Below, in pieces: positions 7,415 to 22,518 of a stretch of 64,000 bases of DNA (position 1 is the stretch's first letter; each line of letters begins with the position of its first letter). Where the stretch lies: assembly GCF_023347235.1 (NCBI RefSeq), contig NZ_CP094467.1, forward strand, positions 1,426,001 to 1,490,000, given 5' to 3'. Position numbers and translations under genes: made by a program. The stretch is from Faecalibacterium sp. I4-1-79. Its GTDB lineage: Bacteria > Bacillota > Clostridia > Oscillospirales > Ruminococcaceae. The notes under the pieces are model-generated. The model saw only the letters and a list, made by a program, of their open reading frames with translations, was not told the origin of the DNA and searched no databases.

Positions 7415-7831
7415 TTACATAGTTTTGTGCAAGTACCAAAGTCGCACAATAAATACAATTTGTCCAATAGCATAAGCCCCAATAATAGTGAAACATGGGA
7501 CTACTGTCATATATCCGGTGAAAATCAAAGCAAAAATAGAAACAGCAATCGTAACATTCATTACCTTGAAGCCACTTGCCATAGCAGCATTACTAAGCGA
7601 AATATTTCTCTCGTCATTTTCCTCTATTTCCATTTCTTTGGTTTTCTTAACGAACAAGTCGCACACACCAGATACAATCAGCAAAATTCCAATGAGAGAT
7701 GTACCTACTACTATTAAGTCGGGACGTGGCACAGGTATTATTTCATGTACTCCCAAACCGTATGTTAGCAATCCTCCCAGTAGAATAATCATTCCTGTAA
7801 CTGTCATTAAAATCAACAACCTTTTTTTCAT
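7415..7831 (-). CDS. Small four-helix membrane protein
   Basis: 138 aa from the ATG at 7831, with AGGAGG 7 bases upstream (a TTG two codons earlier is too close to that site). Hydrophobic segments lie at about residues 5-25, 40-58, 88-108 and 112-130, with a charged loop KKTKEMEIEENDERNISL between the second and third. It starts 3 bases after the stop of an XRE regulator, a pairing common in Firmicutes. The function is unknown; by analogy with similar pairs it may be a membrane partner of the regulator. Confidence 0.75.
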   Translation of the reverse strand: MKKRLLILMTVTGMIILLGGLLTYGLGVHEIIPVPRPDLIVVGTSLIGILLIVSGVCDLFVKKTKEMEIEENDERNISLSNAAMASGFKVMNVTIAVSIFALIFTGYMTVVPCFTIIGAYAIGQIVFIVRLWYLHKTM

Positions 7832-7833
7832 AA

Positions 7834-8031
7834 TCAATCCTCCTCGTAAATAAAAATTTCTTCAATACTCATGTTGAAATATCTGGCAATCTTAAATGCC
7901 AACTGAATAGATGGGTTATAGCGTCCGTTTTCCAAAGAGCCGATGGTCTGTCGTGATACTTCCAATGCATTTGCTAAATCTTCTTGCTTTATGCCTCGTT
8001 GCTTTCGTAATTCTTCCAGGCGATTTTTCAT
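7834..8031 (-). CDS. XRE-family helix-turn-helix regulator
   Basis: 65 aa, essentially one HTH_3 domain: QEDLANALEVSRQTIGSLEN is the helix-turn-helix and the protein ends soon after IEEIFIYEED. Proteins of this size bind DNA as dimers and usually repress their own promoter. A near-consensus promoter and a perfect 16-base palindrome lie directly upstream (8050-8101). It is co-transcribed with the membrane protein that follows. Confidence 0.88.
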   Translation of the reverse strand: MKNRLEELRKQRGIKQEDLANALEVSRQTIGSLENGRYNPSIQLAFKIARYFNMSIEEIFIYEED

Positions 8032-12492: not shown

Positions 12493-14301
12493 TCATTCGG
12501 CGGCTGCATCTTCATCCGACAGGTCGATTTCGTACAGGTCAAAACTTTCGTCCTGTGCGACTACCTGCTGCCGTTTCCGGCGCAGGGTGGATAAGAACCT
12601 GTCCACCTCAAAGGTATTCTTTTTGTCCGCGTCCGCAAGGTACTTGTAGTGCGGGTGCTTTGTAATGTCGAACTTCTCCGAGAAGAACGGCCTCACGCCC
12701 CGCAGCTGCAAAATGCACCTGCCGCCGTCCATGATTGCGATTTCGTCCTCTGACATCAACGCCTTTCCTAATTTTTGATAGTTCAGTCCGTGGGAGGTTT
12801 GAGAACCCCGGTTCTCGCTGGTGTTGAAACTGTCGATGGTCTCTTTCCCCAGCGCATCGGAGATCTCTTTGGCATTCTTACCCCGCCCACTCAAAAAGAG
12901 AACAGAATCGCAGTTGTCCGAAATGATTTCGGCCGCATCCTTGTAGATGGCTTTTAGCTGCGACTGGCTCTGCAAAATGATGGATGCCGAGATTTCCCGG
13001 CTGCGGATGGTGGCGATCAGCTTGTCGAAGTTGGGAATCTGCCCAATGTTGGCGAACTCGTCCAGAATCAGCCGTACATGGACAGGCAGCCGACCGCCGT
13101 ATTTATCATCCGCACGGTCACACAGCAGATTGATAAGCTGGCTTTGAAGCATGGCAAGAATGAAGTTGAAGGTGGTGTCCGTGTCGCTCATAATCAGGAA
13201 CAATACCGTCTTTTCATCCCCGATGGTGTCCAGTTCCATTTCATCGACCTCCATCAGCTCCCGCACCTCCCGGATGTCAAATGGGGCTAAACGGGCACCA
13301 CAGCTTATCAGGATGGAGGAACGGGTCTTGCCGGCCGACAGCAAAAACTTTTTGTACTGCCGGACGGCGAAGTGGTCCGGGTCTTTCTGTTCCAGCCGTT
13401 CAAACATGAGGTCCACCGGGCTTTGAAAGTCCGGGTCATCCTCGCGGGCTTCACTGGCGTTTATCATTTCCAGCAGGGTGGTGAAGTTCATTTCCTCTGC
13501 CGGGGCCTCGTACCAGATGTAGCCAATGAGTGCGGTGTAGAACAGCCGTTCCGACTTCACCCAAAAATCTTCTGCTGATTTTTCACCCTCGCCTTTGGTG
13601 TTAGCGATAAGGGTATTCACTAGCTTCAGCACGTCTTTTTCCGAGTGGATGTAGACAAAGGGGTTGTACTTCATGGACTTGGAAAAGTTTATCGTGTTCA
13701 GGATTTTCACCCGGTAGCCTGCCCGCTGGAACATTTGGCCCATTTCCAGAACCAGTGTGCCTTTTGGGTCTGTGACCACGAATGAGGTGGGATAGTCGGA
13801 AGTGGGGAAACATTGCATGAGGTTGGGCTTCACATAGAAGCGGGTCTTGCCGCTGCCGGAGCCGCCGATCACAAGCACATTTTTATTCTGGGCTGTTTTG
13901 GGGTCTTTGGGCCGCCCAGTCATGGTCAGGCGTTCGGTCTGGGTCAGCAGGATGTTGTTTTCAAACTTGAGGTCGATGTACGGGGCAATGTCTTTAGCGG
14001 TGCCCCACCGGGCAGAACCGTATTCCTCGCCCTTGCGGTACTTCTTGGCGTTCTTGCCCTTGCTGTACACGATGAGCCGGACAGCCACCGCCCCGGCAAC
14101 GCCCACGCACAGGTCAAACAGATGCAGGCTGGGCAGCGGGCTTGCAAAGGCGACAGAGATGCCGTTCGTCAGGTGGAGCAGCTTTGCCGAAGCATCCACG
14201 CCCGCCGCCAGACGGTACGCCTGCCCGCATTTGGCGAACAGGTACACGAACAGCAGATACGGTAGATTCAGCACCAGCAGCTTTTTCCATTCAGGCTTCA
14301 T
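12493..14301 (-). CDS. virD4: VirD4-type coupling protein
   Basis: 602 aa. Two N-terminal membrane segments (about residues 8-24 and 60-80) are followed by a Walker A motif GGSGSGKT near residue 146 and a Walker B region RLILDEFANIGQIP. This is the TraG/VirD4 ATPase that hands relaxase-bound DNA to the secretion channel at the membrane. Its ATG overlaps the stop of pcfB (ATGA), and maff2 follows. The acidic C-terminus (DLSDEDAAAE) is typical. The gene looks intact. Confidence 0.93.
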   Translation of the reverse strand: MKPEWKKLLVLNLPYLLFVYLFAKCGQAYRLAAGVDASAKLLHLTNGISVAFASPLPSLHLFDLCVGVAGAVAVRLIVYSKGKNAKKYRKGEEYGSARWGTAKDIAPYIDLKFENNILLTQTERLTMTGRPKDPKTAQNKNVLVIGGSGSGKTRFYVKPNLMQCFPTSDYPTSFVVTDPKGTLVLEMGQMFQRAGYRVKILNTINFSKSMKYNPFVYIHSEKDVLKLVNTLIANTKGEGEKSAEDFWVKSERLFYTALIGYIWYEAPAEEMNFTTLLEMINASEAREDDPDFQSPVDLMFERLEQKDPDHFAVRQYKKFLLSAGKTRSSILISCGARLAPFDIREVRELMEVDEMELDTIGDEKTVLFLIMSDTDTTFNFILAMLQSQLINLLCDRADDKYGGRLPVHVRLILDEFANIGQIPNFDKLIATIRSREISASIILQSQSQLKAIYKDAAEIISDNCDSVLFLSGRGKNAKEISDALGKETIDSFNTSENRGSQTSHGLNYQKLGKALMSEDEIAIMDGGRCILQLRGVRPFFSEKFDITKHPHYKYLADADKKNTFEVDRFLSTLRRKRQQVVAQDESFDLYEIDLSDEDAAAE

Positions 14302-18472: not shown

Positions 18473-19765
18473 ATGGCCACCAGTGCACAACTCAGAAAAC
18501 AGATCCTGCAGGGCAGCTGGGACGACGCACTTGCTGCACTTTATGGGGCGAACCCGGCGGTGCTGCAACGGCAGCGCGGGCGCTATGCGGCGGCGCTGGA
18601 ACAGTTCGAGCTGTATTTCGGCCCCGGGCGGCAGGTGCAGGTGTACTCTGCACCGGGGCGGGCAGAGCTGGGCGGTAACCACACGGATCATCAGGGCGGC
18701 TATGGCCTTGCGGCGGCGGTCACGCTGGATCTGGTGGCGGTGGCGGCCCGCAACACGGATGGCTATGTGCGGGTCAAGTCCCGGGGCTTCAACAAACTGG
18801 ATGTCATTGATCTTGCTACCGCAGAGCCGCAGGCAGGGGAGATCACCCACTCGGCCAGTCTGATCCGCGGCATTGCCGAGGGATTCCGCGCAGTGGGCAA
18901 GCAGATCGGCGGCTTTGATGCCTATACCGCCAGCGATGTGCTGCGCGGCTCCGGGCTGTCCAGTTCGGCGGCGTTCGAGATGGGCATGGCCTCCATCTGG
19001 AACGAGGAATACAGTACCGGGCTGACCCCGGCAGAGCTGGCCGGCATTTGCCAGTATGCGGAAAATACCTATTTCGGCAAGCCCAGCGGCCTGCTGGATC
19101 AGCTGACCAGTGCGGTGGGCGGTATTATCTTTGCGGATTTTGCCGATCCGCGCACCCCAAAGATTGAAAAACTCCACGCAGACGGTCTGCTGCCGGAGGG
19201 AATGTTCCTCTGCGTCACCGATACCCGGGGCAGCCACAGCGAACTGACCGGAGAGTTTGCAGCCATCCGGCAGGAGATGGAGCAGGTGGCCGCCTGCTTC
19301 GGTAAGCCGCTGCTGGGGCAGGTACAGGAGACGGCATTCTGGGCGGCACTGCCTGCCTTGCGCAGCCGCTGCGGAGACCGTGCAGTGCTGCGGGCGATCC
19401 ATTATTTTGAGGAAAACGCACGCACGCTGGCGCAGCGGGATGCGCTTTATGCAAAGCGGTTTCCGGTGTTTGCGGGGCTGGTGAAGCAGAGCGGACAGGC
19501 TTCCTTTGCGCTGTGCCAGAACGTGTACTGCACAGCGGATGTGCGGCATCAGGGGCTGTCGGTGGCGCTGGCCTTGAGCCAGAGCATTCTGGAAGGCACC
19601 GAGGGCGCGTGGAGGATGCAGGGCGGCGGCTTTGCAGGCACCATCCAAGCCTATGTGCCCAGGCGGCTGCTCGGGCGGTACCATACAGCCATTGAGCGGG
19701 TGTTCGGGCAGGGCAGCTGCTATGTGCTGCGCTTGCGGGAGCAGGGCGCAGTCCGGGTGATCTGA
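18473..19765 (+). CDS. galK: Galactokinase (GHMP kinase family)
   Basis: 430 aa from the ATG at 18473, which follows GGAGGGGAGGAG; an in-frame ATG at 18416 overlaps the promoter and is rejected. The galactokinase signature PGRAELGGNHTDHQGG is near residue 60 and the GHMP phosphate loop LRGSGLSSSAAFE near 160. The catalytic Asp is probably in GKPSGLLDQ. The enzyme phosphorylates galactose at C1 in the Leloir pathway. No galT or galE is adjacent. The C-terminal GGGFAGTIQAYV is the family's third motif. Confidence 0.9.
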   Translation: MATSAQLRKQILQGSWDDALAALYGANPAVLQRQRGRYAAALEQFELYFGPGRQVQVYSAPGRAELGGNHTDHQGGYGLAAAVTLDLVAVAARNTDGYVRVKSRGFNKLDVIDLATAEPQAGEITHSASLIRGIAEGFRAVGKQIGGFDAYTASDVLRGSGLSSSAAFEMGMASIWNEEYSTGLTPAELAGICQYAENTYFGKPSGLLDQLTSAVGGIIFADFADPRTPKIEKLHADGLLPEGMFLCVTDTRGSHSELTGEFAAIRQEMEQVAACFGKPLLGQVQETAFWAALPALRSRCGDRAVLRAIHYFEENARTLAQRDALYAKRFPVFAGLVKQSGQASFALCQNVYCTADVRHQGLSVALALSQSILEGTEGAWRMQGGGFAGTIQAYVPRRLLGRYHTAIERVFGQGSCYVLRLREQGAVRVI

Positions 19766-19776
19766 ACAAAACAAAA

Positions 19777-19820
19777 AGCCGTGCATAACCGGAATGCTCC
19801 GGGATGCACGGCTTATTTTT
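19777..19820. terminator. Bidirectional terminator, galK / peptide operon
   Basis: AGCCGTGCAT (19777-19786) pairs with ATGCACGGCT (19804-19813), followed by a T-rich run on the plus strand and preceded by an A-rich run that serves the minus strand. It ends galK and the convergent double-glycine peptide operon. Confidence 0.85.
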
Positions 19821-19825
19821 ATGGC

Positions 19826-20188
19826 TTACTGTTGCAGCGAAAAAGGCTGGGGGAGAGAATTCTCGACCGGCTTGGCACCTCTCTGCTGAACATTATCCAG
19901 ATACTGGACGGCAGTGACGGCAGTCTCGCGGGTGATGCCAAGCAGACGGCCGATCTGCTGAGAGAGCTTGATCCCGGTCTGCACACCTGCCTTGATCATG
20001 CGGAAAAGCAGCATAGGCACAAAGGTAAAGGAGAACGAGATCAGCCCGCCTTCCCAGAAGAAATCACCAAAGTGCAGATTATCAAAAAAGCTGCCGACAG
20101 CATCGCCGAATTCGCTGCCGCCAAAGGCAGCACGCTGCTCCTCGGGGGAGAGGGCTGCGTAGGAAGAGGGCAGCTGAAGCTTTTTCAT
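19826..20188 (-). CDS. Double-glycine-leader protein A (bacteriocin-like)
   Basis: 120 aa from the ATG at 20188 (AAGGAG 11 bases upstream). The first 24 residues, MKKLQLPSSYAALSPEEQRA then AFGG, look like a leader for a peptidase-containing ABC exporter: LS-x-EE followed by Gly-Gly. The predicted mature part of about 96 residues has an aromatic segment (FFDNLHFGDFFWEGG), a hydrophobic helix (LISFSFTFVPMLLFRMI) and an amphipathic C-terminus. The leader shares LQLPxxYxxLSxEE and GG with the upstream gene. No transporter or immunity gene is next to it. The function is unknown. Confidence 0.65.
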   Translation of the reverse strand: MKKLQLPSSYAALSPEEQRAAFGGSEFGDAVGSFFDNLHFGDFFWEGGLISFSFTFVPMLLFRMIKAGVQTGIKLSQQIGRLLGITRETAVTAVQYLDNVQQRGAKPVENSLPQPFSLQQ

Positions 20189-20222
20189 AAATAAGAACAC
20201 TCCTTTCCGGGTCGATGAAAGA

Positions 20223-20693
20223 TCAGCACAGAGCTACCAGAGTAGGCAGACAATTCTGCTGCTCGGCGGCCTCCTGTTCTGCCTTCTTTTTGGCCTGAAT
20301 TTCGTTGTACGTATTCTTAAAGGCGTCCACAAGATTTTTGATGGAGAGATAGATGCTGCGTGCCTGACAATAGGCATAATAACCGCCCAGACCAGCCATA
20401 CCGATCGTGGCAACCTTGCTCCATGTGTTCAGCTTGCCCCAGTAGTGCCCTATGGCATCACCAACGCTCAAACCGTCGTTCAGGGCATTCTGCATACCGG
20501 AGACTGCGCCCTGGAACGCATAGCGCCCCATCAAGCCCAGCAGATTTACCGTAACATTGATGCCAAAGGCCATGACCTGCTGCGGGGTGATGTTGATGGA
20601 AAAGGCACCGCCCTCGGTGTAGGTCATCTCCTCGGCAGAGAGCACAGAGTAGCCGGCAGGCAGCTGCAGCGGGCGCTGATATGTATGATCCAT
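20223..20693 (-). CDS. Double-glycine-leader protein B (bacteriocin-like)
   Basis: 156 aa from the ATG at 20693 (AAAGGAG 9 bases upstream). The leader ends LQLPAGYSVLSAEEMTYTEGG when the first eight residues and the flanking text are set aside; it is a classic EM...GG processing pattern. The mature part has Gly-rich hydrophobic helices (NLLGLMGRYAFQGAVSG, VATIGMAGLGGYYAY), a Lys-rich helix, and ends with two cysteines in NCLPTLVALC. It is first in the operon, with protein A 35 bases downstream. It is larger than most class II bacteriocins. Confidence 0.68.
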   Translation of the reverse strand: MDHTYQRPLQLPAGYSVLSAEEMTYTEGGAFSINITPQQVMAFGINVTVNLLGLMGRYAFQGAVSGMQNALNDGLSVGDAIGHYWGKLNTWSKVATIGMAGLGGYYAYCQARSIYLSIKNLVDAFKNTYNEIQAKKKAEQEAAEQQNCLPTLVALC

Positions 20694-20751
20694 GATGGAA
20701 AACTCCTTTCGTACACAGAACTCCCCAAGGGGCAGTTCATCTAGTAACTGA

Positions 20752-20780
20752 ATTGTAGCATATCTGCACAAAAATGACAA
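20752..20780 (-). promoter_or_regulatory. Promoter of the peptide operon
   Basis: Minus-strand TTGTCA (20780-20775), 17-base spacer, TACAAT (20757-20752), 58 bases before the start codon. The 343-base gap 20694-21036 holds this promoter and the malQ terminator; nothing else is recognised. Confidence 0.7.
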
Positions 20781-20937
20781 GAGAGCGCGGGTTTGAAAAC
20801 CATGATACATTTGTGAATATATTGTGACGGAATGCTGAAAAACTGACCTGAATACGCTGTAAACACGCAAAGCGCCTGCTTTTTTTACGGCGAAAAAATG
20901 TTGTAGCAAAAACGTGCTGAAAAAGAGGACAACAAAG

Positions 20938-20998
20938 GCATCTGCCCGTACCCGCTGTGCTGCGCAGGACGCAGCAGCGGGCAAAGCAGATGCCTTGT
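20938..20998 (-). terminator. Terminator after malQ
   Basis: AGGCATCTGC and GCAGATGCCT form the outer stem of a long hairpin, with an inner GC-rich stem (CCCGCTG / CAGCGGG). On the minus strand it is followed by TTTGTTG, so it ends the maltodextrin operon. Confidence 0.7.
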
Positions 20999-21036
20999 GT
21001 ATTTTACAGGTTGCCAGACGAAAGGGGAACGGGCAT

Positions 21037-22518
21037 TTAAAGCCTTTCCGGCACACGCTCATACAGCGTGGTCAGCTCGGCGATGTGCCCGGCCAATGTT
21101 GCGGGTAGGGGCTGCGCCAGCCGCCAGTGCCAGTTTGCGCCCTGTGTGCTGGGGGTGTTGATGCGGGCCTCGCTGCCCAGATGCAGCCAGTCTGCCAGCG
21201 GGATGATGGCAGTATCCGAAACACTGGCAAGGCATGCGCAGATCATGCCTTCGGTCAGGGTCTCCGGTGTGCAGCGCAGATACCGGCAGGCGTATGCCAC
21301 ATCCTCGGCGCTGGCGTTGTTGCGCCAGCCCTCAGTGGTCACGTTGTCGTGGGTGCCGGTGTACACCACGCTGTTGCGGGGGTAGGTGTGGGGCAGGTAG
21401 TTGCCCGACTCCCGGCTGTCGAAGGCGAACTGCATGATCTTCATGCCCGGGTAACCGCTCTCGGCCAGCATCGCCTTCACCTCCGGGGTCAAGTAGCCCA
21501 GATCCTCGGCGATGATATTGCCGCCGCCCAGCGCCTGCTGCATGGCGTGGATAAAGTCCCGGTCAGGGCCTTTTTCCCAGTGACCGCCCGCAGCCGTGGT
21601 GCTTCCGGCAGGGATGGAATAGTAACTCTCAAAGCCCCGGAAATGGTCGATGCGCACCACATCATAGATGGAGGTGGCGTGCTTCATGCGCTGCTTCCAC
21701 CAGTCAAAGCCAGTGGCCTTGTGGGCAGGCCAGTCGTACAGCGGGTTGCCCCACAGCTGGCCGTCTGCCGCAAAGGCATCCGGCGGACAGCCGGCTACAT
21801 GGGTCAGGTGCATCTGTCCATCGGTCTGGAACAACTCCGGGTGAGTCCACAGGTCGCTGGAATCCGGGCTGACGTAGATGGGGATATCACCCACCAACAG
21901 GACACCCTTGCGGTTGGCATAGGCTTTCAGTGCGTTCCACTGGGTATAGAAGAAGAATTGCACTGCCTTGTGGTAGCAGATCTGGTCAGCCAGCCGTGCT
22001 TTTGCGGCGGCAATGACCTCCGGCTCCCGGCAGCGCAGGGCGTCCGGCCAGTCGGCAAGGCCTGCCTGCCCCTGCTCTGCCTTTACGGCCATGAACAGGG
22101 CGTAGTCCTCCAGCCAGAAGCTCTGTGCTGTGCAGAAGGCTTCGTAAGCAGGGGAGGGGGCAGCCAGCAGCCGGTCGGCGGCCTTTTTCAGCAGCACCGG
22201 GCGCTGGTTGTACAGCGCACCGTAGTCAACGGTGCTCACCGGCTGCGCGGCGGGGATCTCTTCGGCGGTCAGATAGCCATCTGCCGCCAGCAGACGAAAA
22301 TCAATAAAGTAGGGGTTTCCGGCAAAGGCGGAAAAGCTCTGGTAGGGGCTGTCGCCATAGCCGGTAGGGCCGATGGGCAAAATCTGCCAATAGGTCTGCT
22401 TTGCCTCGGCCAGAAAATCAACGAATGCGGTCGCTTCACTGCCCAGCGTACCGATGCCAAAAGGCCCCGGCAGACTGAACACCGGCATCAAAATGCCGCT
22501 TGCACGCATAACGTGCAC
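21037..22518 (-). CDS. malQ: 4-alpha-glucanotransferase (amylomaltase)
   Basis: 493 aa, the normal size for the bacterial GH77 family. Hallmarks are YDVVRIDHFRGFESYY (nucleophile Asp), IIAEDLGYLTPEV (acid/base Glu) and YTGTHDNVTTEGW. The enzyme moves glucan segments between maltodextrins and releases glucose in the cytoplasm. It is the last gene of the operon with two permeases, a binding protein and a LacI regulator, so it processes the imported maltodextrins. Four bases separate it from the upstream permease gene. Confidence 0.93.
   Translation of the reverse strand: MHVMRASGILMPVFSLPGPFGIGTLGSEATAFVDFLAEAKQTYWQILPIGPTGYGDSPYQSFSAFAGNPYFIDFRLLAADGYLTAEEIPAAQPVSTVDYGALYNQRPVLLKKAADRLLAAPSPAYEAFCTAQSFWLEDYALFMAVKAEQGQAGLADWPDALRCREPEVIAAAKARLADQICYHKAVQFFFYTQWNALKAYANRKGVLLVGDIPIYVSPDSSDLWTHPELFQTDGQMHLTHVAGCPPDAFAADGQLWGNPLYDWPAHKATGFDWWKQRMKHATSIYDVVRIDHFRGFESYYSIPAGSTTAAGGHWEKGPDRDFIHAMQQALGGGNIIAEDLGYLTPEVKAMLAESGYPGMKIMQFAFDSRESGNYLPHTYPRNSVVYTGTHDNVTTEGWRNNASAEDVAYACRYLRCTPETLTEGMICACLASVSDTAIIPLADWLHLGSEARINTPSTQGANWHWRLAQPLPATLAGHIAELTTLYERVPERL

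Follow-up and report, generated by a model that had tools for sequence, protein, structure and literature searches.

We propose that two adjacent genes of Faecalibacterium sp. I4-1-79, here called A and B, encode a MAM-like envelope protein and a membrane-associated partner, both of which would be exported by the MAM-type PCAT of the cell, a reading in which we have moderate confidence. In the scheme we have in mind, the A-B mRNA would be made from an extended -10 promoter. Each leader would then dock on the C39 domain of PCAT and be cut after its GG, and the mature protein would be pumped out, a step that we infer from the leaders, the transporter and their co-occurrence. Outside the cell, mature A may serve as a helical envelope subunit, as reported for MAM, and mature B may stay with A at the membrane, through its conserved hydrophobic core, as an anchor or cap. 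Since the leader of B has Gln at position -7 and is possibly used less efficiently, an unequal A:B ratio could result.

MAM itself is reported to be the most abundant envelope protein of F. duncaniae; it was found in surface extract without its first 21 residues, and one leader-bearing MAM peptide was found in the envelope fraction (PMC12184118). The same paper suggests, from an in silico link, that PCAT cleaves and exports MAM, and it also proposes that MAM assembles into a hexameric lattice.

The A-B locus and its transcription unit

The window, that is, the whole stretch of 64,000 nucleotides that was analysed, carries the pair on its minus strand with the following features.

20780-20752, minus strand: promoter, extended -10 type (TTGTCA, 17 bp, TGC TACAAT)
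20718..20738, minus strand: stem-loop near the predicted mRNA 5' end, with covariation among homologous leader mRNAs
20703..20710, minus strand: ribosome-binding site of A, GAAAGGAG, identical in 16 aligned leader mRNAs
20223..20693, minus strand: gene A, 156 aa, MAM-like protein with a double-glycine leader
20607..20693, minus strand: leader of A, 29 aa, ending in LQLPAGYSVLSAEEMTYTEGG, with predicted cleavage after GG
20226..20606, minus strand: mature A, 127 aa, starting AFSINIT, all-helical by prediction
20189..20222, minus strand: A-B intergenic stretch, 34 nt, holding the B ribosome-binding site AAAGGAG
19826..20188, minus strand: gene B, 120 aa, second double-glycine-leader protein
20117..20188, minus strand: leader of B, 24 aa, MKKLQLPSSYAALSPEEQRAAFGG, Gln at -7, with cleavage after GG predicted
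19829..20116, minus strand: mature B, 96 aa, starting SEFGDAV, with the conserved hydrophobic stretch GGLISFSFTFVPMLLF
19777-19813, minus strand: terminator hairpin (z -5.32, 0/200 shuffles equally stable)

The original prediction had described two reading frames of one operon with matching double-glycine leaders and with mature parts of about 127 residues from AFSINIT and about 96 residues from SEFGDAV, served by one promoter and one terminator; our analysis bears out each of these points, the common leader pattern being LPxxYxxLSxEE...GG. The N-terminus of gene A is MDHTYQRPLQLPAGYSVLSAEEMTYTEGG, and gene B opens with the leader given above. Both genes have good ribosome-binding sites, that of A reading GAGAGGAG in locus L028 and GAGAGGAA in locus L036, two loci outside the 16-row leader-mRNA alignment. 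The reading frame of A stays open upstream as far as 21062, and we set its start at 20693 because the promoter, the ribosome-binding site and the homologues all point there. Upstream of the pair lie malQ and a sugar ABC transporter operon, and behind B lies a convergent galactokinase gene; between galactokinase and malQ, no separate gene besides A and B was evident. Purifying selection acts on both genes: dN/dS against the close relative L013 is 0.025/0.143 for A and 0.066/0.216 for B, well below 1 in each case. For the flanks, the comparison with L092, whose A matches that of L013, gave 0.015/0.239 for malQ and 0.024/0.285 for galactokinase. Elsewhere in the window, the product of 12493-14301 (minus strand) matches Pfam T4SS-DNA_transf and is a VirD4/TraG-like type IV coupling protein, a hint of a conjugative element.

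A consensus scan of 19600-21100 returned the A-B promoter as its sole promoter-like site, where 0.9 would be expected by chance. Even with one site found against 0.9, the promoter call is credible because its architecture is kept in 26/26 homologous loci, each of which has TTGT(C/T)(A/G), exactly 17 bp, TG(C/T/G) and TA(T/C)AAT upstream of A (best site per locus, chosen by script). That this extended -10 promoter drives A-B, and how strongly, we infer from its sequence. The terminator hairpin, which is common to B and the convergent galactokinase gene, was absent from the output of the same scan over 19600-21100. The region upstream of the MAM gene of this genome looks different from the A-B promoter when the best sites are compared. 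A promoter shared with MAM was therefore rejected, and the A-B promoter is not claimed as a family-wide feature.

By itself, the leader mRNA of the window has no unusual stability (z -1.06, 32/200 shuffles equally stable). At 23 of the 26 loci the predicted leader mRNA folds best with a local hairpin near its 5' end; L017, L026 and L027 fold differently. In alignment A6, which holds 16 of the 26 leader mRNAs after near-identical ones and the longer L028 and L036 were dropped, a 5-bp stem is paired in 93.6% of 78 cells and shows two-sided changes at all five pairs, where slid versions reach at most 62.8% paired. None of 500 shuffles came as high on four of five measures, and 4/500 did on the remaining one; kinship among the sequences can inflate these covariation counts, and the window's own stem sits in a shifted register. 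The structure of this stem-loop is conserved more than its sequence. A hairpin at the extreme 5' end would suggest a stabilised, well-expressed A-B mRNA.

The leaders, the transporter and their distribution

The 21-residue leader cores of A and B are identical at 11/21 positions. For PCAT1, the printed leader consensus is L(-12)xxxE(-8)L(-7)xxxxG(-2)G(-1); binding of the leader falls strongly when either -7 or -12 is changed to Ala (PMC6959990). The A leader fits this consensus with Leu -12, Glu -8, Met -7 and GG; Met stands at -7 in 25/26 A homologues, and most MAM leaders have Met or Leu there. The B leader keeps Leu -12, Glu -8 and GG, and position -7 is Gln in the window. Among the 26 B homologues, -7 is Gln in 17 and Leu or Met in 6, Glu stands at -8 in 25, Ile, Leu or Val at -12 in 25, Pro at -18 in 23 and Tyr at -15 in 22, with positions numbered from the first GG, so that GG at -1/-2 is there by construction in these counts. 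GG is invariant among the 15 aligned B proteins (alignment A2).

Profile searches agree with this picture. A leader profile made from MAM only found all 26 A leaders at 10.5-29.4 bits (window A 18.5) and reported 23/26 B leaders at 8.4 bits at most; since it picked up window A and missed window B, the B leader appears divergent and the A leader typical. Two of 1,040 shuffled N-termini scored 13.0 and 11.7 bits on this profile, against 10.5 for the weakest A leader. Because the MAM-only profile was too narrow for B and its shuffles scored high, we used a wider held-out profile of 42 leaders (A homologues, MAM and other leader proteins), from which all B and window A were excluded and in which A leaders of relatives were still included. 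It gave 47.5 bits for window A and 12.6 bits for window B, and it found the B homologues in 26/26 cases at 9.7-21.4 bits, against 6.6 for the best of 2,600 shuffled B N-termini. With Gln at -7, where PCAT binding favours Leu or Met, the leader of B would be weaker than that of A, and B is perhaps a poorer PCAT cargo.

The original prediction called for a C39 peptidase ABC transporter encoded away from the pair and was to fall if the genome had none; one is present, so this condition did not refute the claim. The 3.23-Mb one-contig genome encodes a single C39-domain protein, of 778 aa, at about 1.973 Mb (G000:C1, L003:10860-13196). It scores 91.9 bits on PF03412 in its C39 domain and 575.7 bits on TIGR01193 (cut-off 523.85), and it carries Q8, C14, H92, GDP at 138-140, GIETVK, Walker A and LSGG. 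Q8, C14 and H92 match the residues printed for the F. duncaniae PCAT (PMC12184118), and we took D139 of the GDP motif as the equivalent of the printed F. duncaniae Asp136. The solved structures nearest to the transporter are entries named ABC-type bacteriocin transporter. We take the nearest solved transporter matches, 4ry2 and 6v9z, to be PCAT1. Judged by these motifs, the protein is a C39 peptidase fused to an ABC exporter, with its catalytic residues, and of the PCAT type. It lies about 0.5 Mb from the A-B pair, and MAM is at another site, 1.224 Mb (L010:7303-7746); the MAM protein, MMMPANFSAVSENEMTYVMGG..., fits the MMMPAN signature. Downstream of PCAT, on the plus strand, L003:13356-13811 encodes a product of 151 aa that has no Pfam family at E 1e-5, and L003:14886-16514 encodes one that combines group 2 bacterial Ig-like repeats with a hydrophobic segment at its C-terminus.

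A search for further proteins with this leader, as the original prediction had advised, gave six in this genome counting A and B: the pair itself, MAM, a second tandem pair at 211 kb and a 77-aa protein. The profile contained the leaders of these very proteins, which makes the six a listing and no independent test. The second tandem pair (L011:7201-7530 and 7606-8025, minus strand, 75 nt apart; in tandem also in the relative L039) is like A-B in layout and leader type, but its mature parts, which carry an (A/N)DMxxSxxN-type motif, differ by eye from those of A-B. Its second protein has a weak match to TIGR03893 (type 2 lantibiotic; E 0.002, below cut-off). The 77-aa protein, with leader MTTSTMKMPASYSAIEAEEMTYLDGG, is encoded within L012 7707-8036 on the plus strand, at about 2.42 Mb. 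Loci L052, L054-L057 and L066 have, near their MAM matches, an extra MAM-like protein with leader MTFPANYAVIAEDELTYV(T/N)GG that the MMMPAN signature would miss.

Homologues of A, MAM apart, occur in 26 of 31 genomes of the genus, and A lies directly upstream of B on the same strand at 26/26 loci with a gap of 24-111 nt, a range that, like the A and B sets used below for hhalign, rests on start codons chosen by script. The same order holds in 13/13 named loci with a B homologue, all of them Faecalibacterium. MAM is likewise found in 26/31 genus genomes, as is a PCAT-type C39 domain (88 bits or more), which sits in a frame of 776-846 aa in 25. In G029 this domain stands in a frame of just 203 aa, for which either a disrupted transporter gene or a sequence error could account. 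With G029 counted as having the domain, pair and domain are concordant in 29/31 genomes (Fisher p = 7.7e-4, with the 31 genomes treated as independent and shared ancestry as a confounder). The pair, MAM, PCAT and every leader protein are missing from four genomes (G019, G020, G021 and G027), of which G021 has a C39 match of 32.6 bits only, in a 293-aa frame. G025 (79% complete) has MAM and PCAT and no pair; in G026 (77% complete) the pair is present, and no MAM or PCAT was found. Leader-type proteins number two to eight per genome in 27/31 and none in 4/31.

In a family sample, the B profile matched 4/297 genomes and 1/126 genera, all four Faecalibacterium; five genomes of this genus are listed in the sample, four of them matching, and the 293 genomes without a match include every one from outside the genus. 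In an order sample, the leader profile matched 4/295 genomes at E 1e-4, in 2/148 genera, three of them of this genus. The remaining match, at locus L105 in another genus of the order, is a single protein whose leader, MKFPSSYTLMDVEEMTYVDGG, closely resembles those of this set.

The flanks are also conserved. malQ is beside A-B in 11/13 named loci, and 10/13 retain the series sugar-ABC permease, malQ, A, B, galactokinase-family gene. In L092-L095 the galactokinase-family gene is convergent and 79-95% identical to that of the window; in L097-L102 it shares the orientation of the pair, and its identity to that of the window is 42-43%. L096 has malQ-A-B without a galactokinase match, and L103 and L104, the latter a 6.5-kb contig, show none of these flanks. 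The nearest named locus is that of F. prausnitzii ATCC 27768 (malQ 97%, A 94% and B 89% identical). The N-terminus of the MAM of L061, in genome G003, equals by eye the 42-residue peptide printed for F. duncaniae; therefore L016, from the same genome, would be the pair of F. duncaniae or a near relative.

The mature proteins and their likeness to MAM

For hhalign, we used all 26 A and all 26 B proteins with leaders removed, and a MAM set of 28 proteins (27 distinct), pattern-picked from loci L042-L071; the alignments A1 and A2 hold 16/26 A and 15/26 B, near-identical rows having been dropped. Mature A against mature MAM scored 28.9 (E 2.9e-4, 78 columns, probability 40%), and the reverse direction scored 27.3 (probability 29%), against 15.3 for the best of 60 column shuffles and 17.0 and 16.1 for reversed profiles. 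When A was split, the 14 rows nearer the window (L004-L025) scored 23.0 (probability 9.4) and the other 12 (L026-L037) 20.5 (probability 4.8). The AlphaFold model of A is poor (pLDDT 58.8) and has helices at 37-72, 77-87 and 90-146, where those printed for MAM are 37-70, 74-86 and 100-119 (PMC12184118). The predicted helix order of A resembles that of MAM; because the leader lengths differ, this comparison rests on order and lengths rather than on residue numbers. Taking these together, A looks like a distant cousin of MAM.

Mature B gave no such match: it scored 9.9 against MAM (best of 60 shuffles 14.7), and mature A against mature B scored 14.3 (best of 60 shuffles 15.4). The candidate that B is a MAM relative was therefore rejected, its profile comparisons being no better than shuffles. 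Where the original prediction had recognised no family, the leaders of both proteins now fall in the same set as those of MAM, and a remote similarity to mature MAM extends to mature A and not to mature B.

The most conserved stretch of B is SFTFVPxLLF, with S53, F56, P58, L60 and F62 invariant in both alignments. Its hydrophobic 19-residue maximum is 1.57-2.15 in 26/26 homologues and at least 1.6 in 22; a maximum of 1.6 is reached in 11/26 A homologues and 2/28 MAM. Such a maximum would suit a membrane-associated segment, yet it is not peculiar to B. The AlphaFold model of B is also poor (pLDDT 57.1), with helices at 15-21, 26-37 and 53-104. The mature part is 62-97 aa long among the 26 B homologues and 114-131 aa among those of A. 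Searched with window A and B, Pfam gave matches below its curated cut-offs only, and NCBIfam, PHROGs and PADLOC gave no match at E 1. Among the A proteins, a weak match to Pfam Bacteriocin_IIc appears in 2/16 (best E 0.0016). A PDB sequence search with the two family profiles turned up nothing of use: the A profile hit two designed helical proteins (E 0.04), and the B profile had no hit.

A is thus like MAM in its double-glycine leader core (PA-Y/F...E-M-x-Y..GG), its genus, its single-PCAT genome, its similar length and its predicted helices, and in the weak, remote profile similarity of its mature part, which is absent for B. Unlike MAM, the A-B pair lies at a malQ-side locus, has the second gene B and lacks the MMMPAN signature: in the form MMMPANx(8,11)VxGG printed in PMC12184118, it matches neither A (LQLPAGYSVLSAEEMTYTEGG) nor B (LQLPSSYAALSPEEQRAAFGG). 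PCAT1 and its cargo CtA of Clostridium (Acetivibrio) thermocellum share with A-B a leader of 24-29 residues with L(-12), E(-8) and GG, and the cargo is 66 aa long against 127 and 96 aa for A and B (lengths only). They differ from A-B in that the A-B genes lie away from PCAT and in the Gln at -7 of B. Among the titles and abstracts listed by searches of the open literature, none concerned the A-B pair. MAM was collected by PSI-BLAST in PMC8836110, where ten MAM clusters and their gene context are described, and by the MMMPAN signature, which A and B lack, in PMC12184118; in PMC6295017, the passages on MAM make no mention of relatives.

Alternative readings and what the pair may mean

The original prediction had offered an unusually long two-peptide bacteriocin as one example of what the pair might be. 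Class IIb two-peptide bacteriocins, whose killing needs both peptides, come with an adjacent immunity gene and a dedicated transporter. A-B resembles them in its two adjacent GG-leader genes and its helical, hydrophobic, Gly-containing mature parts, and the weak Bacteriocin_IIc match in A points the same way. However, neither an immunity gene nor a transporter is evident beside A-B, where the flanks are malQ and galactokinase, and a bacteriocin is therefore unlikely; the pair is, moreover, present in 26/31 genus genomes and malQ-adjacent in 11/13 named loci rather than scattered, and its mature parts are far longer. We accordingly do not favour a bacteriocin pair and regard it as very improbable. 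That A and B are secreted signals or host-directed proteins, acting on neighbouring cells or, as claimed for MAM, on the host epithelium, seems to us improbable as well. It draws on the link to MAM, whose expression in HEK cells reduced an NF-kB reporter (PMC8836110), and on the fast divergence of A, which is 38-43% identical to L093-L096 in best segments where malQ is 81-89% identical. But surface proteins would equally be expected to change fast, pheromones are rarely long proteins, and no receptor gene was seen among the neighbours of the pair in the window.

An unlikely but somewhat more serious rival accepts the export of A and takes B as no normal PCAT substrate: its leader would be kept or rarely cut, and B would act on PCAT as a membrane chaperone, escort or limiter for A. 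The Gln at -7 in 17/26 B leaders, at a position where a hydrophobic residue matters for PCAT1 binding (PMC6959990), would fit this, as would the membrane-like hydrophobic stretch of B and the failure of the MAM-only profile to report window B. Against it stand the invariant GG of the 15 aligned B proteins, the conserved positions -8, -12, -15 and -18, and the Leu or Met at -7 in 6/26, because a leader that is not used would need no conserved positions. We keep to the reading in which PCAT would export both A and B. A more specific form of it, in which A and B are two parts of a surface lattice or pore, A being a MAM-like lattice subunit and B its membrane anchor, is one we put forward tentatively and consider rather doubtful.

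Much work has gone into MAM as an effector protein of a major gut bacterium linked to health. The conserved A-B operon, found in the same genomes and with the same type of leader, suggests that MAM is perhaps one member of a larger set of envelope proteins exported by PCAT. The pair would offer new targets for explaining differences between strains and a natural test of the hypothesis that MAM is exported by PCAT, and it may exemplify a surface layer assembled from small proteins that an ABC transporter exports. If the lattice reading were true, the envelope of Faecalibacterium would be dressed by some two to eight PCAT cargos and not by MAM alone, in a surface layer unlike those of large Sec-exported S-layer proteins.
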